Below are positions 2,254-62,566 of a stretch of DNA of 64,000 nt, one piece after another (position 1 is the stretch's first letter; every line of letters starts with the position of its first letter). A program made the translations under genes and the position numbers. This DNA comes from Paralvinella palmiformis. Its lineage: Eukaryota; Annelida; Polychaeta; Terebellida; Alvinellidae. The notes below the pieces were generated by a model. It saw nothing but the letters and a program-made list of their open reading frames with translations, ran no database searches and was not told the origin of the DNA. The stretch spans positions 887,501-951,500 of the forward strand of contig JAODUP010000127.1 of NCBI GenBank assembly GCA_025642065.1, given 5' to 3'.

Positions 2254-2380
2254 ATCCAAGTTACGTGTGGAAGATATGAAGGAGGTTCAGCAGGCTCTGA
2301 AAGAGGCTCAGTGGGCCGATGACAGGGAGGTTACTCACTGTAAGCAATGTGAAAAAGCATTCTCTGTCTCTAGGAGAAAG
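2254..2380 (+). CDS. RUFY1/2: RUFY penultimate coding exon
   Basis: Acceptor TGTTGACAG just before 2254 and donor AAG/GTATGTG after 2380. The first base completes a codon split by the upstream intron. It encodes the end of the coiled coil, WADD and the first FYVE zinc-binding cysteine pair. Confidence 0.87.
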
Positions 2381-3326
2381 GTATGTGTAGATGCTTTATG
2401 GCCTAATGTTTATAAAAACTCTTACCTGAATGGTAGTTTATACGTTGGCTTTATGTGGTTATCTATATTGCCAGCTAAACTTTCAGATGAGCTATTTGTA
2501 ATGTTTCATTTTTTTCATTTGAAAGACAAATGGTAAATTCCCTTTCAACTGTATATTTGTTATGAAACTGTTAGAAATTTGTACCGGTAGTGGTTTGCTG
2601 TAGAAATTAATTTTAAAGCTATTCACAATTCATTCCGAGCTTTTATTTAAAGGTTTCCATAATAATAAGATGATTTGGGTAGAATGATCTTACCGATGAC
2701 TAAATCGATCAGATCTTGTTGGTCTCAGGTTTTGCGATGCCTATATTGTGATACCTATATTGTGACACGGATGTTTATATCACAATATTTATGATGCCTA
2801 TATTGCAATACTCCCAACGCCTGTATTGTGATATTTCTGATAGCTATATTGTGATATCTCTGATGCTTATATTGAAATTACTCTTATCTGTATTTTGCAA
2901 TACCTCTGATGCCGATATTATGATACCCTCGATGCTTGTATTGTGATACCTATATTATGAAACCTCTGATGCTTATATTCCGATAATCATATAACTCTGA
3001 TGCCGATATTGTGATATAAACTAAAATGCTTGTATTGTTCAAGTTATCTTTCTTCATGGGGCAACAGACCTCTGACCAATACTCATCATAGAAAGTCAAT
3101 GGGAGTTTATAAGACGATTGATGAATGTGCAGTCTTTAAGAATAACACCTACAATGTGCTTGATGGACTTTTGTTTTGAATTTTCCAGCATCACTGCCGA
3201 AACTGCGGAGATATTTATTGTAATGAGTGTTCCGACCAGAAAATGCCTCTGCCTTCGTCGGCACGACCAGTTCGAGTTTGTGATTCCTGTCAGACGCTGT
3301 TGCTGCGACGTTACTCAGCTAACTGA
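2254..3326 (+). CDS. RUFY1/2: RUFY1/2-type RUN and FYVE domain protein, 3' end (partial gene)
   Basis: C-terminal end of a RUN/FYVE endosomal effector. RUFY proteins bind small GTPases through the N-terminal RUN and coiled-coil regions and PI3P on early endosomes through a C-terminal FYVE finger. Two coding exons are visible, 2254-2380 and 3189-3326, joined in phase 0. The first opens inside a codon, ends the coiled coil ([14 protein letters not shown]) and gives the WxxD motif plus the first zinc pair (HCKQCEKAF). The second gives the HHCRNCG core, the next pairs (CNEC, CDSC), the RVC motif and the RUFY-typical end in [10 protein letters not shown], then TGA. RRK from exon one plus HHCR from exon two rebuilds the PI3P-binding R(R/K)HHCR signature, so the finger looks intact. 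RUN domain and most of the coiled coil lie off the left edge. RUFY1 versus RUFY2 cannot be separated from this part alone. Confidence 0.9.
2735..3035. repeat. degenerate minisatellite in the last RUFY intron
   Basis: About a dozen imperfect copies of a unit of roughly 22-25 bp, core CTGATGCYTATATTGTGATA, running through the intron up to about 150 bp before the FYVE exon. Confidence 0.75.
3189..3326 (+). CDS. RUFY1/2: RUFY last coding exon (FYVE core and stop)
   Basis: Acceptor TTTTCCAG precedes CAT CAC TGC. The exon is 45 codons plus TGA and supplies the remaining zinc ligands. The longer open frame that overlaps it in another register is a shadow. Confidence 0.9.
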
Positions 3327-8704: not shown

Positions 8705-9043
8705 TTATTCTTCTCTCATCCAGGATTCATCACCTTGTGATGATGAAGTCTTTTTTGTCTTTTTGCTACTAGTACGTTTTGAACTAGATTTGGACTTTTC
8801 AGTCTTTTTAGAAGTTAGTTTCTTAGCAGTAACCTTCTTCGCAGTCTTCTTCTTCTTCTTCGCTGCTTTTTTCTTCTTGGGGGCAGCCTTCTTCTTTAAA
8901 TTTGAAACTTTCTTCTTTCGTAATTTAGGAGGCTTATAACCTCTGACCAGTTCTGGGTGGCCCTCCACCTGCATACGTTCCTCCCATGCCTTCATTTCAG
9001 CCTCATATTTATCTCGGTCTGCTTTAGCTCTTTCAGCGTAAGG
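8705..9043 (-). CDS. TFAM: TFAM exon 7: end of HMG box 2 and lysine-rich tail
   Basis: Acceptor CTACCTTTCAG on the minus strand, then CCT TAC GCT (P203-Y-A). It encodes the third helix of box 2, WEERMQVEGHPELVRG, then the lysine-rich tail and TAA at 8705-8707. 339 nt, phase 0. Confidence 0.9.
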   Translation of the reverse strand, partial: PYAERAKADRDKYEAEMKAWEERMQVEGHPELVRGYKPPKLRKKKVSNLKKKAAPKKKKAAKKKKKTAKKVTAKKLTSKKTEKSKSSSKRTSSKKTKKTSSSQGDESWMREE

Positions 9044-9065
9044 CTGAAAGGTAGTGAGAAATGAG

Positions 9066-9105
<40 letters not shown>

Positions 9106-24240: not shown

Positions 24241-25388
24241 TATTATCGCTCATATACTCATCTCAGAATAAGACAAAGTTACTGCAATACGTAATGCCAT
24301 GCTAATTCTTGATAACAGTCATATTTATGGAATACATAAAAACTAATATTTATCACACCTGAAACATGTCTGACTAATTCTTGTTGAGATTTTCAAAAAC
24401 AAAATCCCTCCCAACGAGGTCATACTGCATAAGCTCGACCAAGAACGTGATATTTCCAATTTGTTAATTAAATAAAACAAAGTTGTTCTACTTGTAAGCG
24501 TTAGATCTATGTTTTATAAGATACATCAAAAACACAGTGTACAAAAGGAATATGTCATGATAAAATGTGGTATAATATGAGAATGATTGAAATTAGTGCA
24601 TGTAGTAGAGTATATTATAGTAGAGTCTATATATATCTATACTAGATCTACTACTCCAAGGATAGTAGATCTATTTATTTTCATTTACAGAATTTGAGTT
24701 GTTATGATTAAATATACTAATTATACAAAGTTCACACTAGAAACAAGTTTTCGTGTGTTAGTCTTTTAGAACAACAAACATTGTCAAGCAATAAAAACAA
24801 GCAGTAGGTCGAAAATGAAACAACAATACATATTGCATTCTCTTAATATAGGATGTAATATTAAGATTTTCGAGTATAGATATTATATACATCTATATAA
24901 ACAGAATATTTTAGTAATGACGTGACAAAAATATGATTTGGTGGTGGGTGACATCCTCTTCAGCATTTGCAATACGGAAATTTATGAAGATAGCACTTTG
25001 GTGAAATACTCCCGCACTCTTGATGAGGGATCCTTAAATGTTTCACTATATTACGTATGTTTGTAAACGTTCAGACATTTCATGTTTTCAATATTTATTT
25101 TATAAATATATTAAATTAAATATATATCTCCTATCTGAGTTCATAGTTTTATCTTTTATTATATTAAGACAAAGATACTTAGCCGCAACCCACGCAAAAT
25201 ATTTACATGTAGAAAGGGTCCCTCTGACGTCAACATTTATGCTGATGTGACAGACCCTTTAGACTAGTAGGCAGGTGTGGTAGTTACATATATGTAATAT
25301 TTTTATTTTCTTTGAGTTATATACTTACGTCTACTGTTTTGTTACACAAAATAGAGAAATAACCAGTGTAACACACCTACTTCGAGAT
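24241..25388. promoter_or_regulatory. TFAM-CPE divergent intergenic region with full CRE near CPE
   Basis: Between TFAM exon 1 and the CPE start, with no ORF of note. A perfect palindromic cAMP response element TGACGTCA lies at 25225-25232, about 157 bp before the CPE ATG. It sits in an imperfect inverted repeat whose arms are AAAGGGTC and GACCCTTT, with a half-site-like TGATGTGAC in the other arm. Function is inferred. Confidence 0.4.
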
Positions 25389-25623
25389 ATGAACGTCATT
25401 CCCCTGCTGTTGGCCCTTGGCCTATGCTATACAGGGTCAATATGTAAGGGATTTGAGATTGCCCATCATCACAATTATGAAGAAATGCTACAAGTGATGG
25501 AAGATGTGGCTGAAAAATGTCCAAATATTACATATCTGTACAGCATTGGAGAAACAGCTGGGAATAAAGGCAGAGAATTGGTTGTCATTGTCTTGTCTGA
25601 TAATCCTGAGAAGCATGAAGTTG
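25389..25623 (+). CDS. CPE: CPE exon 1: signal peptide and start of catalytic domain
   Basis: ATG after [24 protein letters not shown] is the signal core, followed by the [12 protein letters not shown] start of the M14 domain. Donor GTTG/GTGAGT, phase 1. Confidence 0.95.
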
Positions 25624-26624
25624 GTGAGTAGTTCTACTAAATAGTAAATTATAAATAGCAGTGTAACTTGTTTATTCAGTCTTGCTTAATTAGTGTGCGT
25701 CCATGCTATTACACTCCCACGCCCGCACAGGCTACAGCCATCCATATGGTAATTTGTGTGAGCAGTTGATTATCATTGAATGATGAATAATATTATTTTA
25801 TCTAGAAAACATAAATTTCATTCCAACCATATACTTTAATGAGAAATAAGACTGTTGCCAGGTTGACTATTTGTTAATTTCACTTCTCTTCTGCTGATTG
25901 AATTAGTAAATTGTGATTCTAGGGAATATTTTTAAAACATGGTACTTTAAACCTCCAGATTGTAAGCTCTAATCTAACTCGTGTACTTATATTTGTGGAT
26001 GTTCCTTTGGAAATTGTTATGAACTATCTGAAAGACCACCAATAAAACTACAGAAACCACTTACTATTTCCCTTTCATAATTGAAATAGAATGCCAATAT
26101 ATATTTCAATTATGATTCAAATCACAATTTATTATGCATTTATCTTTCAAAATTTTAAAGTAACAAGGTGTTTTTAAAACAAAAACTGATAGATAAATTG
26201 GGAATATAGACATAAGGAAGTTTAATGTCATAATTCTTCTTTGGTAATTAGTCCTGATATAATATGGCCACTATTAATAACATATTTACAGCTGATAAAG
26301 TAATTCTTTATTTTCTTAGAAATTTATTTTCATATTATTATCAAGAAAACAGTTTTATATAATATAAATCTATTGACCCATGATAATTTATTTATTTTTC
26401 TCTCATCATGCTTAAATATTGCCTAAGTGTGTTAAAAAATTTCTGTATTTAATTTAAAAATGTTGCTATATAATATAAATATTTATTTACATAATAATTT
26501 ATATATCAGTGAATATAACTAACATTAAACTATGCATTAAAAATCATTTATTACTTGTTGAAACATTTACAGACAAGATATAGCTGCCATTAACAATGCT
26601 TAATTCAAATGGATCAGCTCTTTT

Positions 26625-43433: not shown

Positions 43434-44310
43434 CCCTTGAGCAAATTAGAAATGCACACAAAGCATCTAAATTTGACTTCAGTCGTAAATCAGTACACGT
43501 GATGCTAGTCAATTTACAGGGTTTTTCTTTTTTCTATTTTGATCAATCTTTATAATTCTATTTATTGTTTATATTAAATTTGTAAGATCAAAGTACCCTG
43601 TGGCCACATAACCAGGCGACTTCATTAAATCACGGTACGGCCATACCACCCCCCCTCCTTACGTCATTAATTGTTTATAAAAGCCTTGACGTAGGTAACC
43701 CCGTTTTGACCTAAACCAGATATAATCCATTAAAAATACATTTTTAAATGTTTTAATGCGTTTTCGTTTATTTAAATTTTTTTTGTCTTCTATTATTAAT
43801 TTATTAATTTCACGTCTTTTTATTATGACCTAGGTATGTGACGTAGCTGAGTGACAGAACGTCGATTGTAATAACGTTCGCCTAAATGAAATTTACTCAA
43901 GTGGTTGTAAAGGCGAATTTGACGTAGGCCGAACTGTTTATGTATGTACGTTTTCAAAAATGTGAGAAATGCTGGATGAGTTCTAAAAATCCAGGATATA
44001 ACTGCAGGATATGTGAATGATTGATGACGCATTTTCCGGATTATTGAAAGAGAATTCCGGATCGCGTATGTTTGAGTGATAAACAAAATGATTTAACAAC
44101 GTTTTTCTTATTGACGTATTAGCTCAGTACGTAGTGAATAAGGCGGTTTACAATTTCATATTAAACCGATTATTTTAACCGAATCTGACATAATTCCTCT
44201 AACTGAACGAGTACGTCGGAATATTTGAACTCTCGTTATACCCAACTTGCGTCGACATCTTTTAACACCAACTGTACGAAGAGAAAAAGTAAATAAAAAC
44301 GAATCAAGCT
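40881..44310. other. intergenic region between CPE and gene A
   Basis: No gene established. It contains a possible TATA-plus-first-exon arrangement at 41067-41198 (see findings). A degenerate dispersed repeat at about 41740-42260 has landmarks TTATATAGCACTCTTTTCAT and GCAGGCAGTCCATTCCAGAG and seems to be a common invertebrate repeat type. There is an (AT)n tract at 43391-43431. The short open frame at 42078-42263 falls in that repeat. Confidence 0.4.
43391..43431. repeat. (AT)n microsatellite
   Basis: Uninterrupted run of about 20 dinucleotides. The antisense and sense YIYIYI open frames are artefacts of it. Confidence 0.95.
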
Positions 44311-44399: not shown

Positions 44400-44797
44400 C
44401 TAGGACTTTACCGGCCCAGACAACAATATCCAGGTGTGTATCTGATCCAGAAGCTCACTGGAGCAGTCTTCAGAGGCCAGCACGACCTCGAAGTGTGGCA
44501 TGATGTCTCTGTCTTGCAGGCACGACAACGGTATGTTCTTAGAGTATATGTCATCTCTTACCACTTCCATCGGTAGCAGGTATCTGATCGAGTAGTTATC
44601 CAATCTCGGTATGGGCACCTGGAGTAGACCGCGGCATGATACGTAGAACTTATGCATGACGTCACTTTTCGGTACCGTCAGCAGAAGAGTGGCATGATGG
44701 ATATCGCCGAACACGTAGAATTTGCCTATCCTCTTACAAGTCGTATCCGGATGGTGACGGAACGAGCCCTTTACGTGCCATTTCCGGATCGTGTGGA
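44400..44797 (-). CDS. gene A exon 2: four-cysteine core and stop
   Basis: Acceptor TCAATTTTCAG, then TC completing Leu77 and CAC ACG ATC. 131 further codons and a stop. Clear homology to gene B exon 2 over its whole length. Confidence 0.88.
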
Positions 44798-47700
44798 CTG
44801 AAAATTGACAAGCGGCGAAGGTGATAAGCATTTGCAATGGACACGTGAAGAATATAAGTTGTTGATTGGGATAAGCAATATGTTAGGGTGTCTGCACTAT
44901 GCATGGATGTCCCAATTCCGGACAGCCCAAAGTTCCAATAGCCTGGTATATGTCGTATAATGCTTTGTCCTGTTTTGGAAAGATAATTATTGCTGGGGGT
45001 TTTCGGACACTTTTGTCCATATATTGGGCTAAATGGGACGAGTTATCTCGAAAAGCAATGCAGCAAAGTGATGGGATGAAAAACCCTTCAGACCTAGCCC
45101 GGGTCTAGTGTGAACCCATATGCTAGAGGTTTGAGAGTAACCACGCTACCAGTTCAGCCACGGAGACAAAAAAGAACGCGTGTCTAACGATGAGATATTT
45201 GCTAGACCACGGAGGCGCCCCTCGAACTGTTGAGAGAGAGAGAGAGAGGGATGTATTTTATGTGTCACCAGGTAGCGAATTGCGATTTCCTTAAAGCTGA
45301 CGAGTGTGTGTACAAGTCTTTGCACTAATGGTATATTAGGATGCAAATTAAATTTAGATCAAAACTACATAAGAACATTACTTAAGTGTATTAAAGATAA
45401 CGAATTCCCTGTGTACCTAATCATCGTTAGTTTTGTGGATATCTGGAGTAAAATCTAAAATACTTCCAGCCTCCACAACTCCATTGTACATTGTACTATT
45501 ACTTCGTACATCTAATACAAGGGTTTATACCTTTTGTGAGCTTTTGTAATATCCATGGGGCAGTTTGACACATATAGCTGTCAGCATCCCGTGTTATAAT
45601 AATACTGATACTTATTGTTGTTATTGGTTTTAGAATGGAATATTCCAACTTATTCCTTTCCATGACATCGTTCCTATAGCCCAAGGTTACGAAATAAAGT
45701 CCACATTATTTCAACATGGACAGAAAGTATTTATTTCGTCACAGATGCGACGAGGAAAGGAACAATCAATCAAGTCGTGGAAGGCTCAAGAGTATACACA
45801 GACTATCACCGAAAGCATAAACAGCCTTTTATTGGGAGGGCTTCCTGGAAATGGCGTCAGCTTCAGCAAAAGTCGTCTATTTTCGTAGAGGGTCACGAAT
45901 ATGCAAATCAATATAACTTCCATATGTGCTTATCACAACATAACATAAGCACTGATAGACAGAAAATTATATTCATGCGGGGGGGGGGTGTCTTCTGACG
46001 AATTTGTTGAGTGAAAGCGTGAATAAATCATATAATATAAATATATATTTGGATATAGGTTAGTGACGATTAATGTTCTCTATATAGCGTTTCGAAATTC
46101 TACCCACGAAGGTCCCCTACACCAGCAGAGGCGTCTAAAGCTCTGAGCAGACAGAAAAACGTGTTCGATGAAGACTGTCATCTTCAGAGTCCGAAGCTAA
46201 CCTGTCTATGACGCTGAATGAACCATCATCTTCTCAAATATTAAGCCATATCATTTTATCAAACTCTTACCATTATTTGTGTGTGTCAAACGCTCAATTT
46301 TGTTTTCTTCGAATTTGGGATTTTTCTGTGTCTTCGAAATTCTTCTTAACAAAAAACACTGGTAAAGCACAATGGTAACGAATCCCCCTGGACAATATGT
46401 CCTGTGGGATAATATGTCCTGCAGGATAATATTTCCCGCAGGACAAAATTCCGTGGAACAATATTCTTGTATTTTGAAAACAATGGTAATTGCTCGTAAT
46501 ATGTTTATATTATTTATTAAAGGTCAGATAAATTTGTTTAACTAGAGGTGGTTTTTATGTGCAAGATAGACGAATGGTAAAAGGGTTATAAACCGAGAAA
46601 GGTTATAAACGCCATATTGAGGTATCTATCAGGGTAATTGTGTGTGACATCTGTTTACTCAAAATATATTGCTCACAACCGTTTGCGTTCATCAAGTGAT
46701 CACGTTGACAGTTAACTTTAAACCGAGGTGCACGAATTGTTACATGTGAGAGGCGTCTGCATCAGGAAATAAATCCCACAAACGCAGGAACATAAGCCGG
46801 ATTCGAACCAACAACCATGAAATTTGTAGCGCCGTGCTCTAATCACTGTGCCAATACCCCCCCCCCCCTCAGATAACTCGACAATGACACGACTATTTAG
46901 ATGATGATGATTGATGTTTTACGGCCACTTTTGTGAACAAGGTAGGCTAAATGGGCCGAGCAACCTCCAAAGGTAATGAAACGAAGTCAAAGATGAAACA
47001 ACCTTCAGATATGCCCACGCCGAGATTTGAACACGGGTGGTAGTGATCTGTAGTCCAACACGCTACCGCTAGACTACGGATGCGCCCAACATGACTATTT
47101 AGAATATTCACGATTAGATTTATATGTCGCTCATATTCATAATAAATCTTTACACCATCATTTGAGGAAGCACTACAATAGGACACGGAGTGGTTCAATG
47201 GATTATATAAAATGCTGATTTATCGCCGTATTTTCATATGTTCCTTCAGCTTCCGTTCACTGACATTTAGCTGGAACATGATGTAGATTAAATAGACGAA
47301 ACATAATGTGCAATGTAACACTTAGGTTTCGGAACTTGTACTTAAAATGGGAATCTGATAAAAATGCAAAATGCACTCGATGATAGTTTAGAGCAGTTGG
47401 TTCGCCTTGCAAACTGTGCTCAATGGCCACTTGAGATTAGAATAATAAAGTAATAGCTAAAGAAGGAAACGTCCACGAAGGAAACTTCCGAAAAAAAATG
47501 ATCCGGATTAATACTAACCCCTTTCATCGACCGTCTGCCGTGGTGACAATATGGCGGCAAGATGGAAATAAAAACAACACGTGACTTGACACTTACGTGG
47601 CAGCTCGAAGTAGGTACCATCTCGTAACGTCTTCCGGTGTTCTATCTCCAGCGCGGATCGATCGCGAGACATCAGGATCGCCTTATCTTCGTCGTCGTCA

Positions 47701-47825
47701 TCGGGATCGGTGAGCAGGCCCGTACTTAGTCCGACAGTGGCACAGACCCGGGTCTGTCGCCACGACACAATGAACACCAAGATCAGCGTGGCCAGATGGC
47801 GATTGAAGCTGTTGGAGAGGAACAT
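44400..47825 (-). CDS. gene A: unrecognised secreted four-cysteine protein, paralogue of gene B
   Basis: Two exons, 47825-47597 and 44797-44400, joined in phase 1, give 208 aa. Start ATG at 47825-47823; the frame extends four codons upstream without another ATG. Residues 9-21 (RHLATLILVFIVS) look like a signal peptide, followed by an acidic run (DPDDDDED) and GTYFELPL. The mature core starts RKWHVKG and has cysteines at 97, 131, 169 and 188. Gene B shares spacing C-x(32-33)-C-x(37-38)-C-x(18-21)-C, plus WHV(K/H)G, SCLQ(D/Q)(R/K)D, FxEV and a C-terminal SGP. Alternating hydrophobic stretches suggest a beta-rich, disulfide-linked extracellular domain. I do not recognise the family. Codons are more GC-rich than in TFAM or CPE. 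Function unknown; a secreted ligand or defence protein is conjecture. Confidence 0.8.
44991..45167 (-). mobile_element. diverged SINE, family 1
   Basis: Plus strand shows CACTTTTGTCCATATATTGG, GGGCTAAATGGGACGAG, AACCCTTCAGACCTAGCC and CCACGCTACCAGTTCAGCCA. A separate 23-bp head piece (GCTAGACCACGGAGGCGCCC) follows at 45200-45222. Confidence 0.7.
46386..46475. repeat. degenerate ~17-bp tandem repeat with palindromic core
   Basis: Four to five copies around GGATAATATGTCCTGCA, joined at the palindrome TCCTGCAGGA. Confidence 0.65.
46748..46868 (-). mobile_element. SINE, family 2, truncated
   Basis: Plus strand shows GCATCAGGAAATAAATCCCA, then GGATTCGAACCAACAACC and TGCTCTAATCACTGTGCC. A C-homopolymer replaces the extreme 5' end. 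Confidence 0.7.
46901..47088 (-). mobile_element. full-length SINE, family 1
   Basis: Minus strand starts GGGCGCATCCGTAGTCTAGC, with B box GTTCAAATCTC and full body. Target duplication ACACGACTATTTAG (46887-46900) and ACATGACTATTTAG (47089-47102), one mismatch in 14. Confidence 0.9.
47597..47825 (-). CDS. gene A exon 1: signal peptide and N-terminal region
   Basis: Donor CCAC/GTAAGTG on the minus strand, phase 1. It encodes residues 1-76 and one base of the split codon 77. A plus-strand open frame of 143 codons crossing this region is antisense. Confidence 0.8.
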
Positions 47826-47865
47826 GGTGACGCTCAAAGTGTATCCAGAACGACTCAGTCATACA

Positions 47866-47872
47866 TTATATA
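47866..47872 (-). promoter_or_regulatory. TATA box of gene A
   Basis: TATATAA in CGCTCTATATAATG on the minus strand, about 41 bp before the ATG, leaving a very short 5' UTR. Confidence 0.55.
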
Positions 47873-48515
47873 GAGCGAAGCAGCTTTTTGGTCCGGCTCG
47901 GGTGGTACGTATTTTTTTCATCGTCTGGTCGCATTCCGTGCAAATCCCTCGCCAACGGTCGAGCCACTTCGCCAGTTATTATCATGTCGTAAATTGCAAA
48001 GTTGTCCGAACGGGCAGATCGGCGGAAAGTTGTTATTTCGCGAAAAAATTAAATGTTTTGCTCCCCGTACCCATCATATCGGTCTGGATCGTTAGGGCGT
48101 CCCTGTTGGCAAAACTTCTTTCCGTGAGACAGTTTATATAACAGTGTCTACGCCTTAACAGACAGACACACAACTATTATTTCGTTGCTTCGCCTATCGT
48201 CTTTTGTTCTTTCGGTTACATATTTTTCCACTGGCTCTTTGTCCCCACGCAACTCTCTTTCTCGCTCTATCTCTCACTATCTATCTATCTATATATCTAT
48301 CTGGGTATCTATCTGTCTCTCTGGATTTTGTCCAATGATATCTTAAACCGTCTACAAGCCATCTATAAATGAGGAATACGGAGGTGGAGAAAATAACGCA
48401 GTTTACTCTAATTGCATAGCATTCGTATGAATCAGGCCATTGCCCTACTGATTTGAAAGCTTTCCGGTCTGGACCCTACAAATATCAGTTATCGGATTAG
48501 GTAACGCCCTGGAAA

Positions 48516-48517
<2 letters not shown>

Positions 48518-48556
<39 letters not shown>
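48518..48556. repeat. (TA)n microsatellite
   Basis: Uninterrupted TA run. Confidence 0.95.
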
Positions 48557-48561
<5 letters not shown>

Positions 48562-50591
48562 GAGTTTGTAGGCAGGCTTTGTATCAAGGTAGCAACAGAT
48601 ATTTAAATACAAATGGATGGAATTTAGCACCTACAAATCTCTTTGAAAGCGATTCTTATATAAGTTCAAGTTATCGAAGTCGATGTGATTAGAAATACTA
48701 ACTTAGTGCAACTTATTTACGTAACGTAAATGATTTCAATAAAGTATTTTTTGTCGTAATTTTTCGATAATAGACTGTAAATTAGCTGATATTTCGGGGA
48801 TGTTGACATTCCGAGTCGACACCAGCTAGCAGTGGTTCGTCATCGATTTTGAACGCTAATATTAAAGGTTGGAAATGGTGACAGAAAAAAACCCAGGCCA
48901 TATATTAAATGTTAAGTAAGCTATGCAGACTTTATACGTAATTCAATTTTTACAATATTTTGTCATATGATGAAGTAATCCTTATCATATTGATGATGAT
49001 GATGGTGGTGATAACGATGATGATGATGCCAATCGTGTTGTCGCGTGACTTTATTCCGAGCGCAACACTTACTCTTTCCGGTCAGAAAGACGTAAACAAT
49101 CCAGAACAAACACTCATCAACACAATTTCGGCTATAAGTTCGCAGTGACCGAAGGAAACGCGATGCTCGTATCGGGAGTTACCCGACCCGGAAGAAACGC
49201 CCCTATTGTGCCGTTCAGTTAATCGAGATCATATTCGAATAAGCGGACAGCAGACGATGGCTGGGTTCGGGTTGTTTTTTCAGCAGTCTAGACGCACCAA
49301 GAGGCAAACACGTGCGTCCAATTATATCGCGTTACGTAACAAGCATAATGTCGGGATGAGACGCCCACCAGGCCTTATTTCTGGACATCGACGAATACGG
49401 TAATTACGAAGGATGTTAAAACTGGATAATAGCCAGAAGCGGCCCCAAATGTGAGGGTGACAACTGCCCGGAAGCGCGGCTCATTCGCGTCATCAACGGC
49501 TCGTCTAATTGCGGCTTTCGGACGCTGATTAAGGCTTCGACCCCGTGCCATCGATTGATTACCGGTCTGGTTCGTCGTTTTACGCTGTCTAGACGACACA
49601 AACACACAGGAGACAACACGCCCCCTGGTGGAGCTTTTAAAGCTAACCCGCAGAAAACATCGTCCCGTGTAGGACAAACCACGCACAACCGAGCCCTCCA
49701 CAGTTCTCGATCCGAAGTGTTAATATAGATCCCAAAGGCGGAGTTTATTTCGTGATAATAACATAGCACGGAAGTATTTGACTAAAGGTCAACTTCGACA
49801 GGTATGTCGTTAACTGCGTTAGGTGCATACTTATCACCACCCGACAGTTGGATGATACCGTGTGACACTTTGTGTACTTTAAAGTCGATTTTAATGAATG
49901 TTTGTGGTACGATCTATAACAGTTATACCTCGGACTTACGGCCAGACTTAATAAGGACAACGTCAGAGCCGTTCGAAGGCATTAATTGGCTGAAGTGTCA
50001 AATATATGAATGGCTGAGAGAGAAACGTGCCTCGAACTCGACTATTTTCCAACTCGAACATACATCACTGCTATTATGAATAATAAATTCGCGTATAAAA
50101 TAACCTAATAGCACGTGTGCAGATGATCGAGTTTTATTTATTTGAATTTTTGGGGGGTGGATGCGTCACGTACAGCAACTTTGAAGCCACTTCATCCCAG
50201 TTACCTATTTCGCTTAGGAAATGTATCACCGATGTAACATTTCGCTAAAATGTAAACTTTGCAACCTCCATTCCATCCGTCGTTTTTAAACCTATTTTTG
50301 GTAGGTCATGCAGAAGCCAGAAAGGGCGAACGTCCTCGTTTAAGAAAACGACGCAATCTCTGATCCACACTTAATTGTCGTAAAAATAACTCCACACGCA
50401 GAAGAGAAGAACGAAGAACGAAGAAAAAACCGCCAACAAGCACAAGCCTTCAAGGGGCGCCAAACGACTGTTATTACACCGAGACTACGACGACGAGGCA
50501 ACGAGAGAACTACTTGCCGAATGAATATCGGTATTTTGTGGAGTTTTGTTGCGCGCGTTGAGAACGGCAAGGCACCAAACATCGGTTCGGG

Positions 50592-50598
50592 TATAAAG
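50592..50598 (+). promoter_or_regulatory. TATA box of gene B
   Basis: TATAAAG in CGGGTATAAAGAGGCC, 62 bp before the ATG at 50654. A CCAAT-like GCCAATCAG follows at once. Confidence 0.6.
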
Positions 50599-50653
50599 AG
50601 GCCAATCAGAGCCGGCAGATGCGAAGACTGAAGGGAACGTCTGCTCAGCAACC

Positions 50654-50846
50654 ATGTACTCGGAGAGTGGCATCGAAGCGCATCAGGTCAGGTGCGTCAA
50701 AGCACTGATCGTCTCGTTGTTGGTCGTCTCTCGTCTCGGGGCGGCCGGAGGACATTTGGCGATGTCGCAGAACGCCAGCCGTCTGGAGAACGTGCTCAAG
50801 ATGCCGTTATGGCACCTGAACAGCGGCCAGAGGTTTCATCTGCCAG
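50654..50846 (+). CDS. gene B exon 1: signal peptide and N-terminal region
   Basis: ATG in AGCAACCATGTAC. Donor CCAG/GTAGGT, phase 1, after FHLP, the same position as the intron in gene A. Confidence 0.8.
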
Positions 50847-52293
50847 GTAGGTGAAATCCGTTTCGGGGTGGGTGTGAGCGTGTGTGTGGGAGGCGGACTT
50901 TTGGAGTAGCCCTCGTCACGGGCGGATCCGTAGGATATTTTAGCTGCTGATGGTGCATGAATTGGAAATTACAATAGTTATATTCTACCCCCCAAAAAAA
51001 TGCCTTCAAAACGCAAACAGCCACCTAGACCTCCATCGACCCAAATTATGGTAATTGAACCAAGAATAAAACTATTGTACCCGTCCAGATTTCAATTCGT
51101 GAGAGTAGAAGTAATGAATTCTATTATGTATATAAGAAATTTCAAGTCGCTAACAGGAAAGTTACATAATTATTATAAAGAATATACATTGCATCTATAT
51201 GATTCATTTTTTCTCGTCGGTTACCTGAGGGGAATATTATTTATTAGTGATGACAACTTTAAGCTCATATCTAACAACAATTCAACCGCCTCAATTAAGT
51301 TATTAATTTGACGACTGAGTCAGCTAATAAATGTAATTCTCGTGTGCTCATCGTATTGTCCATTATCCCATTAGTGTCAAATAGATCTGAAATGGCTTAT
51401 CAATGGGATTAAATGTTAAATCTGACCTGAACCTGGCATACAGTAAGACCATCAGGTATCGTTAGTAATAATCTAGAAAATAGTAGGTCACCTGGCTATC
51501 GGTGAGGTATCATTATCGAAGACATAGACAACAGTAGATAACCTGGCTATTCGAAAGGTATTATTATCAAGTAGATAATAACAGGTAACATGGTTATCGG
51601 TGAGATGATGATGATTGATGTTTTACAGCCACTTTTGTGCACAAGGTAGGCTAAATGGGCCCGGTTATCGGTGAGGTACCATTGTCAAATAGACAATAAT
51701 AGGTAACCCGGGTATCGACGAGGCATGTCTCGACGTCATCAACTAACACCGATAGTAACTTTGATCGATTGTTCTTCTTTAATGCAAAGTCTCTCTTCTG
51801 TCAAAAGTATCTTTTAATCATGTATATCTAGAAATTATAATCAAATGAAGCCTTTTCGTGTTTACCTCCGTACATGTTAAACCCAGAAGCTATGGTGTTG
51901 AATGGAGATATTTCGTTTACATGTTTATTAAATTTTGATAATCTAATAATCTAAGTCAAAATGCCAAGAGAAGATTAATGTTTACGTCTCAAATATCACC
52001 AGTCTGGATTATGTCTCCTGATGATAGCCCAGAACATCAATATGTAAAAGTAATTTCTTTATACAATAAGCAGTGTCTCCTTAGACATTGCGGGGCGCCT
52101 CCGTGGTCTAGCGGTAGCGTGTTGGACTACATATCACTACCATCCGTGTTCGAATCTCGGTGTAAGCAGATCTGAAGGTTGTTTCATCTTTGACTTCGCT
52201 TCATTACATTTGGAGGTCGCTCGGCCCATTTAGCCTACCATGTGCACAAAAGTGGCCGTAAAACATCAATCATCATCATCATCCTTAGACATT

Positions 52294-52359
<66 letters not shown>

Positions 52360-52772
52360 CACACACACATATATATATATATATATAAACATACACGTGC
52401 GCTCGCTTGTAAGCGCCACTCAGCGAAAACTACGAGTACGCCCACGCGCACCTTCTTCGTCTATATTATTAAACGTTTTAGGTGTTAGCCTGACAACATT
52501 CTCACCTCACCACAATTGAATAATTGTAGCTGGATCGTTTACTCGTCGCTAGGCATCAGGTAAAAATACGCACGGTATTAACGGAAAACATGCCCGTACC
52601 TTATTCTACTACACGTGCCGTGGTTTATTTACACAAAACAAAACATCAACCTTTTCTAGATTATAAAATTTTATTAGCAAAACTACAAGTACTAAACACC
52701 AGCGTTTTATTCCATTTTGGCTTGGTTTATGATCTTGGTAATATACTAGTCAGCTTTCTCTCTCCGTGTTTT

Positions 52773-52809
<37 letters not shown>

Positions 52810-55800
52810 CCTGATTTGAAAACCAAAACATTACTACATACTCTGGATGTTGATCAGATCAATGAACTTAAGAGTACTGGCTTTTTTTTATTATTAGAGG
52901 TAATCCGTACACATAGCCATTGATCAATCAGTATGCCGGACTAAAAAACATACAGATTTAACCAGCTATATTTTATGCAGAACCGTTTTATTATTTATAT
53001 GTTTACAGTTGTCGTAAACCCAATCAAGTTCTTCACCTACAGAAATAAATAATTACTTGATGACACGATAGTGTATCATAAAGATGGGTCCATTTTGAGA
53101 CAACTAATATTGTCAATCTAAAGGTGATATTCGGTATATATGGTACAGACATACATCAAATTGAACTACATCGGTGATATTACTGTTAATATAATTTCTA
53201 TGAGCCAAGTAGCCACGTTATATATATATATATATATAAACATTCAAAGAATAAAAACAAATAATCATTTCGACATGAATGATTTTTCGGATATTAAGTG
53301 TCCAGCGTTTTTTCAACTTTCACATAGATTTGCTCTAAAAATGGTCAGAAAACGCAGAATGTTACGTTTTGTCTCTTGTTTCGTAAACAAATAGATCAAG
53401 AGCTATAAATACATACGGGTTAGTGTGAGGCAATTTTGCCACGGGTAATATCTACATATTTTACTAATACGTCATATAAAACCATGTGAACGCGGAGTAA
53501 TTTTAATTTCGAACTTTATTTGCATCTTCAACAAAATAAACTAACGCATAATAATTAAGTTTGCTTTAAATAAAATGGGAGTTGTCATAAATTATTTAAT
53601 TTAAAGTTGCACAAGAAATGTCATCATGTAGGAGCAGATTCAATATATTAATTTAAAACAATGTCGCGTATTCCTTGTATTTATTTTTGTAAAACTTATG
53701 ATTCGGACAATCCCGAGCGGACAAAATGAAACTGTTTGATTGGTCTACAGAAAAGCATATTATACGGAGTATGTTCCGTTTAAATATTATACCAATATAT
53801 TAATTAAATTGTTTTACACTTTAGATCTTATTCGGCTCAAAACCGTATACAATAAGTATTAAAAAATCTCTCCCAGAAGTTGTTCAAATCCAATTAGACG
53901 GAGTAAACGTAGTTGACTCACATAATACCAGATCAAATAGAGACGAACTATAACTTATCTGTTTATAATATAATAAAAAAATTGCGTGATTCGTGTGCTA
54001 TAAAACTGTGGAATAATATGGATATACATTTCGAAGTAAATATAACGTAACAAGCAATTATTTTATTCTTTATCAGATGCACTACCAAACGATTCTAACC
54101 ACCAACTATCATATTTCCATTAAAATGCACCTTAAATACTTAACTTTCGAAATTTCACGAGCCATTGCTAGTGTGTACTACACTCGCTAGGGGTTATTAT
54201 GTGACGTCATCTTTGCCAAATAACACGTAGTGCCACAGCTTTTGACCTATTGACAGACAAAATGTCAGGTTCCGACGACCATTTTGACATTCTCAGGTAT
54301 ATCAAGCCCTACACTTTTGAACCACTAGCGAAAAAGGTCACAGACAGTATTAATTGTGAACAATTAGCTGCAGCAAGTGCATAAGTAGACCCAGAGCAAC
54401 AACCTGTGCCGCCTACACCGGGCCCCGGTCCACAACAAGAGTTGGAATGGTGTGTATTTGTTTGTGTTGATAGAAGTATAATTGATAAGTCAGCCCACTG
54501 GCCCTGAATGCGAATATTTCCCTCTCCCTATCGCATAACTTCATTTAAAATAAAGTGGTATTTGTCTATACACGGGAGCCCGTTGGATGCATTGGGCTCT
54601 CCCATACGTGGCCTATACTGGTCTATACAGGAATGTGCCGCCCTCGGTCTGTCTTTGTAGCCATTTTATTTGTAATTTTCTGGTGTGTTTTTTGTTTCGG
54701 GTCGGGTTTTGACGGCACTTACACGTCGGATATAATCATTGGTACCTGATGTATGTTTCTTTGCACAATTGTATGCGACACAATAAACCATTTTATATGT
54801 TTAATAAAGACAATATAGAACACGTAACACAGGTTAAGCAAGGCCACGTAGAGTGTTTGGGCGTCTTTGTTTGGCAAAGAGGATGTCACATTCCAAAGTT
54901 TTCCGAAGATTCTCGATTAAAATTTCGGCCATGTGAGATGCTAGCAAAGCAAGTTTTAAAACCACTGTAACTTTATTTCTAGGAAAAAATTTAATATATC
55001 TCTGACTGAAATTGATTTTAATATATAACACTAACATTTTGAATAATTTTGGAAACCTTTTCCTGTGACCTTTAATAGTTTTTTTTCTTTTTTGTTGTTG
55101 AGAAAAAGTTGAAAGGTGTTTATTTAGATAATAACATTGCAGATTGACTAATTCATCTTCATCCTCGTTCTTTGCAATTAATAAAGTTAAACATATCATG
55201 CCAAAAAGACACTTAAATACACTTTATTACTCTCTTATATGTCCATACTTAACTTATGGCATTATATTGTGGGGAGCAGCATCTCATGTTCATTTATCAA
55301 AATTGATCATAATGAAAATAAAAAGTGTCAGAATCATTACAGGAGCACATTATAGGGCACATACAACACCAATATTCAAACACCTCCACTTTCTCAAATT
55401 AGTAGACTTATATCAATTACAAGTTAACAAATATGTACTATCATTTCTTAAGGCCTTATTGCCATCTTCGTTAAAACACATATTTACTTTATCACAAAAT
55501 CAACATGGCCACAATACCAGACACTCGACAGCATACAAATTAATGGTGCAGAAAACACGCACCTTGGCTGCGTGCATCATCCAAATGGGTCCTCAAACAT
55601 GGAACCTTTTACCGTATGATATCTACATGTGCACCTCATTACTCATATCTTGTGCGAGTTTCTCATCCAGATTTAAACGATCCACATTGGAGGGCTACGA
55701 TGACTTATCCTATTTTTTCGCCCAGGTATTCATGGCGCTACATATTATTTTAATGAGTGGGATAGAGTTATGGGGAATACACCAGGGCGGCAGCACCAGA

Positions 55801-56986
55801 TTAACGGAATAAATCAGTACTTATTAAGTAAAATTGACTACATCTTACATTCAGTTGTAGAATGGCTCCAACTAAAATTATAACTATAAAAGTATAGACA
55901 AATACGATTTAATTACGTCCAGTGGAGCCAGACAGTCTCTTGTAGACTCTTTTCTACATCTGTGACCTGTATTATTGTATTTATAATTTACTTCTGTTCA
56001 TGAATCTTTACCTTAGTATGTCAGCATATATTATATATATATATATATATATATAGTTCAGAAAATAAGTCATTCATTCATTCAGCGGGGTTATTTTATT
56101 TCATAATCAATTTATGTTATTTTCAAAGTATACCCCATTTAAAAATCTTGCCCCATATAAGTTTATGTATATTATTATTATTATATGTTTCATATATGAG
56201 TTGAGTTATTTAGCCTCAGTGCTGGTCATATCTGAGATATATGGTCGAGAGGCGACTCGATAAGGAGACAAATCCCACTAACACAAGTATAAGCAGGATT
56301 CGAAACAACAACCTGGAGGTTTGTAGCGCAGTGCTCTAACAACTCTACTATCGGAGCGCCCATATATCAAACTAAATGTGTAAGTTTTATTCGAATAATA
56401 ACGTTAATAATAACATTAATAATAATAATAATGATAAAAATAAAATATTATTAATAATAATAATAATATCACAACCATCACCGCTAACAACAACAACAAC
56501 AACACTAATAAAATTAATTACAAAGTAGAAGACAATAGATGATTAATTAATTAACGGATGTTTTAATTTCTATTTGATAATTATACGTTTTATTTGTTGT
56601 TGGAGCTTCCCAAAATAGACATACATTGTATCAGACTATCCTCCATTGTTTCTCAAACATTAAATAGCCATTTTGTGTTGGACTTATAGATATGTGTCCT
56701 GGGAATTGCTCGATTCCGGATTATTTTGATGGAATATCACTGTTAACTGACTGAACGTATCCGGATTAAATGGCTTCCATTTGTAAAAAATAATAATAAT
56801 AATAACGATGACAACGACAACAACCAAAATAAAAACAACAACAACAATAAAAACCTAACAACGACGATAAAATAACAAATATTACAGAGCACACACACAC
56901 ACATGCGCGCGCACACTCCCACCCACACACACACAAATATACACACACAGAGAGAGACACACACACACAACACAGTGGTCAGAGCA

Positions 56987-57020
<34 letters not shown>

Positions 57021-58175
57021 TACACACACACACACACAACACAGTGGTCATACAAATTTTGATAATTATCATCGATATTGTTTAGTTGATTCGGAAGTTA
57101 AAACTCTTTATCTATAATAATATTTTGATTGACACAAATAACATCATCTTATGATAGTTATACCAAAACATGACATTTACGTGTACGATATGATTCTGTA
57201 TATCTATATACAGCGATTCTTATATAGTCGGAATCAGATTAATCAGACAATTTATTTGATATGAAATCAATTCATAATCGTCTAACAAGGCTTAGCTAGC
57301 GTCTTTTACGGCTACACCCTACAATTTTAGGTTGATGAACGGTTGATGATGATTGATGTTTTATGGTCACCGTTTGTGCATATAATAGACTAAATGGGCG
57401 GTGGCTGTTGATGATGATGATTGATGTTTTATGGTCACCTTTTGTGCACGTGATAGGCTAAATGGGCCGTCGCTGTTGAATGCAACTGGATGATAAAGTA
57501 CTACTGAATGTTACATGACAAATACCAAAACTGTATTGTCATTAAAAGGTGCAGAATTTGCAACGGAATATCCCCAGTTGAAATGTTTTTCTTCTGAATA
57601 TAGTCTTAAAATAATAATGTAAATCTTTGGGTCATTCAGTAAAAGAGAATTTAAATATTTTAACAATATTGTCGTCTTAAACGCGATTGTGTTGGACGTT
57701 TATGAGAATCGTTGTTATAATCAACAACAGAAATGCCAAATGGCAACGGAATTAGTTATCATTGTTATTCGGTAACCAAAAGATTATATCCGGACTTAAA
57801 GTCATCTACGTGGGGCGCTCATATGGCAAAGTGCTTAGAGTGCTGCGCCGCAAACTTCTAGTGTTTTGGTTCGAATTCCACTCGCACCTGTATTTGTAGG
57901 ATGTTTCCTCGGCTATAAAAGACTCGGGTATGACATGCGCCGATCCTAAATAACTCAAATCCACTCAATTCAAGTCAACCACGGAAATTAAATCTTATAA
58001 GAGCTTACTGCAAAAATAGGTTTATATTCAAAGGGAGAGCTAATTAAATCTGGATCACGTGATCAACATTCTAGCAGATACTGAGTGATGGATGGTGAGT
58101 AATAAGCGGATTATAGCATTAAACAACAACAACAACAACAATGGTTAAAATCTCAGGAATATGAACATCGACAAA

Positions 58176-58216
<41 letters not shown>

Positions 58217-60079
58217 GTATGTAACGTTAATAACATGTTCTCACTAGCAGGAGCCACTCAAGGGAGTTTCCTAGTTATATACCCAAAAGATGTATCTAAA
58301 ATACAATTAAATATTTGAATGATCAACATACGTAACCAACTGCGAACAGGCGAGTTAAAAAAACCCACACATTTTAACATTTCAAGAGACGACCCACTTC
58401 TAATCTCTACGGGCAACCTATTTCAGAAAGTAAGCGCTGCGACAATAAACGCACAATTACTCTATGACTTGAGCAGAGACACAGGCACCTGCAATAATAT
58501 CTGAATCGATGACCTTTGAAATTTAGGGATGGTATTACAATTGACGGGATTTCACATATATACTCAGGTGCATCACTATTGATAGATTTATAAGTTGGTA
58601 GCAAAATATTGAAATGGATGCGCTATCTATTTGGTGTCATCTCCTCGATCACTTCTGAACTCCGGACACCAAGGGAGTCGGGAACATCAGATTACGGGAA
58701 GTTCGTTTTAAGTTCGTATTACAACAAATATAAACTTGCTCATAGCCTAGCTGCACGGAACTATTTTACCCACATCTTGTTGCCGCCTTCTTGTAACCTG
58801 GGAAGGTTTACATAAGATCAATCAACAAAGAAAACACATACAAATATTGAAGAAATTAAAAACTACAGGTTGTTTGTATATCTATTTGAGCACTTCTCAT
58901 ACGTTTCCCTATATCATGCCATGCCATTGTCAATGTCCGGTTTCGTTACGACACTACAGCTTTGTATTTTCGTAATTGCGCATGCGCGAGAAAGACCAAT
59001 ACGGACACTAGCCACGGTTTCGTTTCGTAATTATCCTGAAGCTGAACCACAATCTAGGCTATGGCAAACAATCTGTATATGATTATAAACTGGTATCGTT
59101 ATTTTAATTTATTTACCAATAATTGTTCACGTCCACAGATAACAGAACATCTTTGACAAAATGAGACCGAACTAAGTCGGACTGGGGAGTTCAGGCTCAT
59201 TTTGTTCACAATCGATAGCAATTCTATGTAACAAAACCAGGCTGCGGAGCTTATTGTTCATTATGCGCTTTATTTTGTTCGCAGTGAATGGCGATCGTAT
59301 GTAACAAAATCGGACTGGAAAAATCTGTGACAGCTAGACTAGTGTAAATGACAAAACTAGACTGATCGAGAAAGCCACACCCATTTCGTGCACGGGAGAG
59401 AGAGAAAGTAATTCTTTAATCTACTTACAACGTGAATTTGTTTATATATATATATATAACATATCATAGAAGGGCATTATTTTGATTTGTGTAGGGCAGT
59501 TTAATTGTTCACAAATTTTTTTAAACTATTATTTTTGTTTTCTCTGGTTTTCATCGACTTCTGGTCAGTGTCAGTGAAGCGAGCTTCACCCTGTAAGATT
59601 TTTAAAACTTTAATACAAATAAATGCACTAAACAGGTGTGCTGATGGTCAATGAAGAAAGAAAATGCCGTCAATTTGTTGATAATTTCAGTACGGTTTTA
59701 GGTAAAAATCCATCAAACATGCAAGAGTATTAAAGGAACATAATACAAAATAAGACCGTGACATACTGCATCAAACTCAGTTACAAATGCATATATACTA
59801 AAATACAGAATTAGTCGTATTTGTTTGTGATTATATGTATTCCATAGATTAATCACATTTGTAAGAATCTAACTATGCTTTCTCGTAATTAAACTAGCCA
59901 TAAACTGCACTCAATATTTATTTACTTGACAATACATTTTTTCGTTTCAGTTTATGAGAAAACTAAACACACATAATACGAAGAAACCTGGGGTGGGGTT
60001 TTTTTTTTGGATATAAGTGATGCCACCTGTATTCATGAAACGTGGTTACTGTATATGGCAAAGATAACACAACACAACA

Positions 60080-60143
<64 letters not shown>

Positions 60144-62163
60144 AAACATACTTAATTTTACAATATACAAACTTTCCCGTGGCTTTCCAGATCCCCAAAA
60201 GAAAATAAACATCTAGATTAGCAAAGTAATAATAATACTAAACCTTTGAATTCTTGCATTAGAGAGGTCCAAAATCGGTTAGGGGGGAAGAATGGAGCTC
60301 GTATAGATAGATATACTGTGTTGATATGAAATAACATAAAATATTAATTAATATTAAGGTGTAAAATTAAACGTTTATCGAATGAGTTGTAATAGAAGCT
60401 GATAAATGTTTACATAACATCGAATACATATTACGGCATAGGTATATACACGAAATATTTATATAACATCGAATACATATTACGTCTGATGAAAGGAATG
60501 CTACACGAGATCTATTAACATAAATAAATAAATAAATATTGTTATTAAACAATTTGCTGCACACACCTGTTTCGAATTAATTCCGTGCTTACAATTGACA
60601 ATTGGTGTTTGTATTCATTTCAATTGCGCCATCTTCTGTAATAGAATCGTCGTGGTTGAAAACATGACGTCTAAAAATTGAGGTGAACGGCAAATTCCAA
60701 TTTCCATACTTATTGATTTGCAAAACCACCAATTGTTAACGTGGCCTTTTTTGTATTAAACTGGTAAAGTCCGTTTTACGATTTAGGAAGTTTCAAAAAG
60801 TTTGGAGGCGAAAAAGAAACAACACTTCGATGACCAATCATTCGGTTCAGGTGTTTATCGACGATGGTATACGAATTTATATCTTCAACAGTTCACATTT
60901 TGCTATACGAGAAGCCGCCATGTTGAATCGACGCCTGACTTCCGGTTAATAATGCAGCTTGGAAATATGCTCGTATGTGTCGGTTTTCAGGTTGGAGTTC
61001 AGGAGTTAGCATTTCGAATAAACATATAGAAAAATACGCAGAAAAAAACACGTCCTTAATAATATTGCTAAGGAAAACATTTCAGGTTGAATCAATTTTA
61101 TTTTCTAGCCATCTGATTCACGTATAAGTATACCATCAGGTTTTTAGGTACACTCACTCTATGGCGTTGCCAACTTATTTAAATAGTCGCCGAAAATATT
61201 AATTAAAATACGGTGAAGAAGTTTTCTTCGATGAATGTTAATTGTTGAACCGAAAAAAATGTTTGTCAATATTTATAAACGCATAAAGCAATAAGAGTTC
61301 CACTGCCGCTCGCGATACATCAAACCATAGTTACGTCATCAGCGAAAAAAATTGAATATTATTTCAATCGATTAACACCATAATTTTGGAAAGCTGACAG
61401 AAATCTGAAATATAAAATAACTGGATGGTATTTAACGTTTTAATTAATCAATCAACGAATAACATATTTACCATTTCTTGTCGTCACCTCGTTTAGGTAT
61501 CTGTCGGTACACTTATTACGCGATATATTATAGATCCTTATACTTATAAGTATTAGAAACATCTACAGCATCATCATAAAGTCGTTTGTCATTCATTCAC
61601 GGGTTCTCTGAATTAAAAAAAGGGTAGCTTTAATCTACATATCATAGGACACAACAATATACCTGTTTTTGTTTTCTATTCGTGTCCCATCCGTTTATAA
61701 TAATAATAATAATAATTTAGCTGTTGTCATCTCGTTGTTATTTTTTTCCATTGATCCAGGTAGGACAATTATGAATTGGCACGTCCACGGTACCCTGACG
61801 TCAAACACCGGAGACGATTGTCTCGCTGTAGGCATGTTTCACGTATCGGGTCATATCTTATTCGCCGAACTCGTGCTGGCCATTCCCGTCGGCCCAAATC
61901 ACGCGCTGAGCGCCAGATGCTCGGATTCGGATCCGTTCTTCGCCGTGACCCGGGTCCGATATTACACCTATCTGCCGCTCCTGCCGCGAGAGCTACACGG
62001 CAGGGACGTCTACAAGACGCCGCTGCCCCGCAGCTGTCTCCAACAGAAGGATCTGCTCTTCTTCCTCGAAGTAACGGTGAAGGCTCTTCGCCCGGCCGAC
62101 TGCCATCCGGCCTTCTTCCGGCACATATCACCGTGGGCGTTGGTCTCCGGCCCGATTGAATAA
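50654..62163 (+). CDS. gene B: unrecognised secreted four-cysteine protein, paralogue of gene A
   Basis: Two exons, 50654-50846 and 61760-62163, joined in phase 1 across a 10.9-kb intron, give 198 aa. Residues 16-30 (KALIVSLLVVSRLGA) form a signal-peptide core after a charged 15-residue lead; a type II anchor is possible. A likely mature start is near GGHLAMSQNAS, which has an NAS sequon. The junction region SGQRFHLPGRTIMNWHVHG matches gene A at GTYFELPLHTIRKWHVKG. Core cysteines are 85, 118, 157 and 179, spaced as in gene A. Other shared spots: RDVY/DDIY, PLPRSCLQQKD/IPLSCLQDRD, and C-terminal VSGPIE/LSGPVKS. Exon 2 is strikingly GC- and CpG-rich compared with its surroundings. Family and function unknown. 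Confidence 0.82.
51465..51725. repeat. degenerate ~60-bp minisatellite
   Basis: Imperfect units contain GGCTATCGGTGAGGTATCAT and AGACAACAGTAGGTAACCTGG-like segments; four to five units are recognisable. Interrupted at 51605-51662 by a SINE fragment. Confidence 0.7.
51605..51662 (-). mobile_element. 5'-truncated SINE, family 1
   Basis: Only the 3' third of the body and its CATCATCATC tail remain. It is flanked by GGTTATCGGTGAG at 51592-51604 and 51663-51675, which may be a target duplication or two units of the host minisatellite. Confidence 0.8.
52092..52282 (+). mobile_element. full-length tRNA-derived SINE, family 1 (reference copy)
   Basis: GGGGCGCCTCCGTGGTCTAG start, A box TGGTCTAGCGG, B box GTTCGAATCTCGG, body, then CATCAATCATCATCATCAT. 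Perfect 13-bp target duplication CCTTAGACATTGC at 52079-52091 and 52283-52295. Confidence 0.93.
52295..52386. repeat. (CA)n(TA)n microsatellite
   Basis: Long CA run starting in the right-hand target duplication of the SINE, then TA. Both strands give spurious HTHTHT/CVCVCV frames. Confidence 0.95.
52774..52808. repeat. (GT)n microsatellite
   Basis: Uninterrupted GT run. Confidence 0.95.
54262..54450 (+). pseudogene. P2X7-like zinc-domain protein fragment, interrupted
   Basis: ATG then MSGSDDHFDILRYIKPYTFE, PLAKK and a short helix. There is an in-frame TAA at 54382-54384, then the same frame resumes as VDPEQQPVPPTPGPGPQQEL and EWC. FDI-PY-FEP followed by an EWC start is, from memory, how the many invertebrate proteins annotated P2X purinoceptor 7-like begin before their cysteine-rich zinc domain. 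That domain is not found intact here, although 54583-54650 has weakly similar words. Probably a dead or truncated copy. Confidence 0.4.
55144..55812 (+). pseudogene. non-LTR retrotransposon reverse transcriptase, 3' fragment
   Basis: 222-codon open frame. KVKHIMPKRHLNTLYYSLIC, PYLTYGIILWG and LHFLKLVDLYQLQVNKYV match the thumb/C-terminal part of jockey/CR1-type reverse transcriptases, ending with QHGHNTRHS and MGPQTWNLLPYDI. The catalytic FADD region and the endonuclease are absent, so it is a 5'-truncated dead copy. Homology runs from about 55160 to 55690. Confidence 0.8.
56199..56361 (-). mobile_element. tRNA-derived SINE, family 2
   Basis: Minus strand begins GGGCGCTCCGATAGTAGAGT, then GTTGTTTCGAATCC as B-box region, then the body with ACCAGCACTGAGGCTAAATA. 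Confidence 0.78.
56888..57036. repeat. CA-rich compound microsatellite
   Basis: Long CA/GA/CG-containing tract. AACACAGTGGTCA occurs twice in it (near 56968 and 57038), showing internal duplication. Confidence 0.9.
57345..57469 (-). mobile_element. two tandem truncated SINE family 1 tails
   Basis: 57345-57399 and 57409-57469 each hold TGATGATTGATGTTTTATGG through TAAATGGGC, and each is followed by a GTGGCTGTTGA-like word. They form a tandem of about 65 bp made from the 3' end of the SINE. Confidence 0.7.
57812..57977 (+). mobile_element. tRNA-derived SINE, family 2
   Basis: GGGGCGCTCATATGGCAAAG start, B box GGTTCGAATTCC, body to CTAAATAACTCAAATCCACT. Confidence 0.75.
58160..58216. repeat. 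(TTA)n microsatellite
   Basis: About 17 trinucleotide units. Confidence 0.95.
59155..59375. repeat. degenerate tandem repeat
   Basis: Three to four loose copies of a unit of about 60-90 bp containing TGTAACAAAAYCGGACTG and CATTTTGTTC. Confidence 0.5.
60080..60141. repeat. (CA)n(TA)n microsatellite
   Basis: CA run then TA run, uninterrupted. Confidence 0.95.
60412..60485. repeat. 22-bp direct repeat
   Basis: ATAACATCGAATACATATTA(CG) occurs twice, about 50 bp apart. Confidence 0.8.
61760..62163 (+). CDS. gene B exon 2: four-cysteine core and stop
   Basis: Acceptor TTCCATTGATCCAG, then GT completing Gly65 and AGG ACA ATT. 133 codons and TAA. The ATG in RTIMNW is internal, because gene A aligns across it. 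Antisense and shifted frames over this exon are shadows of its high GC. Confidence 0.88.
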
Positions 62164-62560: not shown

Positions 62561-62566
62561 AATAAA
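62561..62566 (+). terminator. candidate polyadenylation signal of gene B
   Basis: AATAAA in GTCAATAAACAATT, about 400 nt past the stop, just before a SINE. Confidence 0.45.

Follow-up and report, generated by a model that had tools for sequence, protein, structure and literature searches.

Two head-to-head, strongly diverged genes for putatively secreted four-cysteine proteins without a named family in the annelid Paralvinella palmiformis

What do two small, oppositely oriented genes encode when their products resemble each other and match no named protein family? We examined this question in a 64-kb window of the annelid Paralvinella palmiformis (Terebellida, Alvinellidae; assembly GCA_025642065.1, contig JAODUP010000127.1, positions 887,501 to 951,500 of the forward strand; coordinates below are those of the window), in which gene A (minus strand) and gene B (plus strand) lie head to head. 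The original prediction, made from the DNA letters, had described two head-to-head genes for proteins of 208 and 198 residues and looked to molluscs for relatives. Both genes were found in their place with an uninterrupted translation, and the source is an annelid rather than a mollusc. The explanation we favour, with confidence that is about evenly balanced, is that A and B belong, as functional paralogues, to an unclassified family of small secreted proteins that appears restricted to one lineage and has an extracellular binding domain.

Each gene consists of two exons with zero internal stops, giving products of 208 (A) and 198 (B) residues. The coding part of gene A exon 1 (47597..47825, minus strand) holds the start codon, with an in-frame stop 12 codons upstream, the putative signal peptide and an acidic linker that runs to ...YFELP. 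It is followed by an intron of 2799 bases (44798..47596) and by exon 2 (44400..44797), which encodes a predicted beta-rich four-cysteine domain and the stop codon. Gene B has the same layout, with the start codon, putative signal peptide and linker to ...RFHLP in exon 1 (coding part 50654..50846, plus strand), a repeat-rich intron of 10913 bases (50847..61759) and a homologous exon 2 (61760..62163) that again encodes a predicted beta-rich four-cysteine domain and the stop codon. Splice signals are canonical in both genes (donor GTAAGT and acceptor TTTTCAG in A, donor GTAGGT and acceptor GATCCAG in B), and both introns are in phase 1 at the homologous residue, cutting after base 1 of the codon that follows a common F-x-L-P.

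A TATA box stands 47 bases upstream of the start codon of A (TATATAA, 47866..47872, minus strand) and another 62 bases upstream of that of B (TATAAAG, 50592..50598, plus strand). Candidate AATAAA polyadenylation signals, which are weak evidence, were located 578 bases beyond the last sense codon of A (43819..43824, minus strand), in AT-rich surroundings with further candidates present, and 400 bases beyond that of B (62561..62566, plus strand). The two start codons are separated by approximately 2.8 kb, far for a classical bidirectional promoter, and shared enhancers are possible. The hydropathy maxima of the two proteins lie at the N-terminus (residues 11-22 in A and 14-25 in B), in agreement with the hydrophobic signals of the original prediction, and as judged from this hydropathy both products would be secreted with a cleaved signal peptide.

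Gene A corresponds to the deposited P. palmiformis hypothetical protein LSH36_127g09006 (P0003), with the same residues in exon 1 as far as ELP and in exon 2 from HTIRK. The deposited model is longer (234 residues) and differs at the junction residue, as its exon 1 goes 26 codons into the intron as read here. This extra coding sequence (47519-47596, minus strand; 78 bases) has no counterpart in gene B. The shorter form of exon 1 is favoured because gene B has no insert at the homologous position and because a GTAAGT donor stands at the shorter end.

The two proteins are homologous. BLASTP, run with a 204-residue form of A as the query and not the final 208-residue model, aligned A and B with 51 of 165 columns identical (31%, expectation value E 9e-20), in support of the inverted and strongly diverged duplicate pair that had been proposed. 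An alignment along the mature length had also been claimed, and this held for one compact C-terminal domain in each protein and less well for the linker. The local score of exon 2 was 171, against a mean of 27.7, a standard deviation of 4.9 and a maximum of 50 in 500 shuffles, and the homology of the domain is solid. That of the post-signal linker is weak (score 26; shuffles with mean 15.7, standard deviation 2.9, maximum 29), and exon 1 as a whole is by itself not clearly significant (score 26; mean 20.6, standard deviation 4.1, maximum 49). Four cysteines are common to the domains of A and B.

Across the 128 aligned exon-2 columns, identity at the first, second and third codon positions was 41%, 62% and 26%, compared to 25%, 26% and 28% under random pairing. 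Silent sites are thus saturated while second positions are conserved; synonymous divergence (dS) is undefined, and hence no ratio of nonsynonymous to synonymous divergence (dN/dS) can be given. The G+C content at third positions was 0.67 in A and 0.72 in B, compared to 35% in the window. With silent sites saturated and second positions conserved, A and B look old and constrained, a pattern as expected for an old duplication under purifying selection. Positive selection, which the original prediction had named beside purifying selection, is not shown by a comparison in which silent sites are saturated and the protein is conserved. When the DNA of the two gene regions was compared by BLASTN, the matches all lay outside the exons, and these look like shared interspersed repeats.

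Copies and relatives of the pair are few. Exon 2 of A, searched against the 594-Mb assembly of the same genome, recovered two places at E <= 0.001 from three candidates, namely A and B themselves, and no further copy above chance was present in 30 kb of flanking contig (20 kb after and 10 kb before the window). Among proteins, gene A retrieved a single relative at E <= 1, LSH36_127g09006 (263 candidates), and gene B retrieved two, P0001 and P0002 (204 candidates), with no identical and no named record for B. P0001 (ENA, a 552-base contig) and P0002 (JGI, a 1059-base contig) contain the exon-2 part only, and we infer an environmental origin for both because their contigs are short.

P0001 is identical to B at 104 of 130 residues (80%) and to A at 38 of 126, and P0002 at 84 of 126 (66-67%) and 42 of 122, respectively. 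Both are B-type sequences that keep the four cysteines, with a fifth cysteine in P0002, and they supply the homologues outside the pair that the original prediction had called for. In the four domain sequences 32 of the 122 gap-free columns are invariant, the four cysteines among them, and a further 41 are shared by all three B-type sequences and different in A. This affinity suggests that the duplication of A and B is older than the split among B-type sequences. Confidence in the family membership and constraint of the pair is high.

A profile of five sequences recovered no database proteins beyond these three at E <= 10 (6550 candidates), in a search that required shared exact words and that distant relatives can escape. 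Scans of bacterial/archaeal and viral contigs gave 27 and 93 pattern matches, with no relative among them by tblastn, and no paper on the family was found among those listed in literature searches, as judged by titles and the starts of abstracts. From these searches the family appears to be restricted to one lineage.

One or both genes could instead be decaying or non-expressed copies. Consistent with this, both gene models are known here from genomic DNA alone, the protein search returned no record identical to B, and the deposited model of A ends exon 1 elsewhere. Against this, neither frame is broken and the splice sites and promoters match, the second codon position is conserved while the third is saturated, and close relatives of B exist on other contigs. 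We regard decay or silence as highly improbable.

Can the domain be assigned to a named family? We searched Pfam, NCBIfam and the sequences in the PDB by profile, taking individual proteins, alignments and a consensus as queries. Pfam returned zero families at E <= 10 for A, B, P0001, P0002, P0003 and the consensus, NCBIfam contained no family that matched the A and B proteins, and the PDB sequences gave nothing above chance, with a single chance-level row at E 1.1. A profile match to TNF-like ligands (PF00229) was likewise absent from both proteins. The description of the domain as one without a named family was therefore borne out, with no hit to a well-known family in Pfam or NCBIfam.

AlphaFold2 predicted an all-beta fold with a few short helices for both A (predicted local distance difference test, pLDDT, 76.5; predicted template modelling score, pTM, 0.71) and B (pLDDT 82.9; pTM 0.80), and in both models the last long strand predicted is closely followed by the stop codon. 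Neither predicted fold matched a solved fold significantly. Foldseek found no match that reached E 0.001, and of 1425 matches in a library of viral structures none was at E <= 0.001. Among the matches listed, most structural neighbours were beta domains of carbohydrate enzymes or prodomains of the TGF-beta family, and the rows listed by VIA-align for the two models are mostly what we take to be beta-sandwich domains.

Neighbours of the first kind bear on whether the domain could be a jelly roll of the lectin type that binds carbohydrates, such as a mucus, tube or immune lectin. The structure rows that speak to it all lie at Z 5.4 to 7.7, the jelly roll is a common arrangement and the domain has no sequence match to any Pfam family, which together leave a lectin of this kind unlikely.

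Neighbours of the second kind raise the possibility of a detached prodomain arm (latency domain) of the TGF-beta superfamily, without its growth factor, acting as a soluble ligand carrier or trap. Unrelated proteins score equally high in the same structure-match lists, however, and the sequences do not bear it out. The hhalign score against six prodomain sequences was 11.8, compared to a mean of 11.4, a standard deviation of 2.0 and a maximum of 18.6 in column-shuffled controls (n = 100), whereas the positive control, TGF-beta2/3 against BMP9/10, reached a probability of 80%. Pairwise z-scores ranged from -1.5 to 2.3, and PF00688 was not among the Pfam matches at E <= 10. With the hhalign score at the level of shuffled columns, identity as a TGF-beta prodomain is not supported by sequence at the sensitivity used, and the prodomain-arm reading is decidedly improbable.

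The sequences drew attention to a different candidate, a divergent netrin-like (NTR/TIMP) module serving as a protease or ligand inhibitor. Residues 51-126 of P0001 align to TIMP-2 in a register in which C89 falls opposite C72 and the I-x-P-W motif is paired as well, with a score reached by 10 of 3000 shuffles, and the best TIMP-2 alignment of P0002 ends in the same register. Against TIMP-2, z-scores reached 3.4 for B and 4.2 for P0001, and the hhalign scores beat most column shuffles (reached by 0 of 60 for TIMP-2 and by 1 of 60 for TIMP-2/3). The comparison was, however, made after the motif had been noticed, and the remaining sequences do not follow: the best alignment of B is in a different register (reached by 68 of 3000 shuffles), the scores of P0002 and A are no better than chance (reached by 595 and 801 of 3000 shuffles, respectively), with A in a third register, and every score against TIMP-3 and C3 was reached by at least 109 of 1000 shuffles. 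The hhalign match extends over 17-18 columns only, in the register of B and not of P0001, at a probability of 3%; the comparison of TIMP with C3, which served as the positive control, was equally weak (3.8%) and had no power. TIMPs carry an N-terminal CXC and six conserved cysteines; the A/B domain has neither the N-terminal CXC nor the last cysteine. No NTR/TIMP structure was among the matches listed for the two models, which decides nothing. As the registers disagree between P0001/P0002, B/hhalign and A, TIMP/NTR identity is not supported, and a netrin-like module is a very slim prospect. We file the domain neither as a TGF-beta prodomain nor as TIMP/NTR.

We return to functional paralogues of an unclassified secreted family as the favoured explanation. 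Each protein would begin with a signal peptide that is cleaved off, continue with a short linker and end in a single all-beta domain of approximately 130 residues. This jelly-roll-like domain would probably be held by two disulfides between the four conserved cysteines, whose pairing is presumed. From the hydrophobic N-terminal core, the four-cysteine domain and the stop close behind it we infer secretion, the two disulfides and extracellular binding, in which a stable scaffold would present loops that recognise a ligand, possibly a glycan or another secreted protein. We put the likelihood of this binding mechanism at about one half. After the old inverted duplication, the binding faces of the two copies may have been free to diverge, and the TATA-box promoters suggest regulated, tissue-restricted expression. 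The roles that the original prediction had suggested, as paired partners, defence factors or reproductive proteins, are conjectural. A bolder version, which we consider very improbable, would have a new secreted jelly-roll family restricted to alvinellids or terebelliforms, perhaps a detached growth-factor latency domain, with A and B as co-regulated head-to-head partners that bind the same ligand, or each other's, at the worm surface. The locus provides a gene pair that is amenable to experiment, from an as yet unclassified secreted family of a deep-sea vent animal. Secreted genes confined to particular taxa are common among animals, so interest in the pair is moderate as long as neither a function nor a new fold has been demonstrated.

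The window contains several further features. Two interspersed repeat copies (46900-47087, minus strand, and 52093-52280, plus strand) are 92.6% identical over 188 bases and by eye appear tRNA-derived (SINE-like, as short interspersed elements); across the window ARAGORN predicted no tRNA gene. Within the gene B intron, a long open frame (55135-55812, plus strand) resembles by eye the terminal part of the polymerase of a non-LTR (long terminal repeat) retrotransposon, with no Pfam match at E <= 0.01. An open frame at 25284-25631 (plus strand) with a signal-like start has a partial zinc carboxypeptidase (M14) match in Pfam (E 8.1e-5, just above the curated cut-off) and is probably exon 1 of a secreted carboxypeptidase. 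A partial FYVE zinc finger match was detected at 2183-2536 (plus strand; E 5.9e-4, below the curated cut-off), and a lysine-rich frame at 8705-9103 (minus strand) looks by eye like the end of an HMG-box protein, with no Pfam match at E <= 0.01.

Compared to known systems, the A/B family differs from TIMP and netrin-like domains (PF00965, PF01759) in having only four invariant cysteines, in lacking the CXC and in having no Pfam profile match at E <= 10. For both models, the closest solved structures in the matches listed include the arm domains of pro-activin A, pro-TGF-beta1, BMP9 and BMP10. Unlike prodomains of the TGF-beta superfamily, however, A and B are followed by no cystine-knot growth factor, both frames stopping right after the domain, and their sequence similarity to prodomains is not above that of shuffled controls. 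The carbohydrate-binding modules CBM35, CBM6 and CBM32 likewise have no profile match in A or B (Pfam, E <= 10), and the four conserved cysteines have no demonstrated counterpart in them, whereas their jelly-roll architecture is similar to the all-beta arrangement predicted for both proteins.
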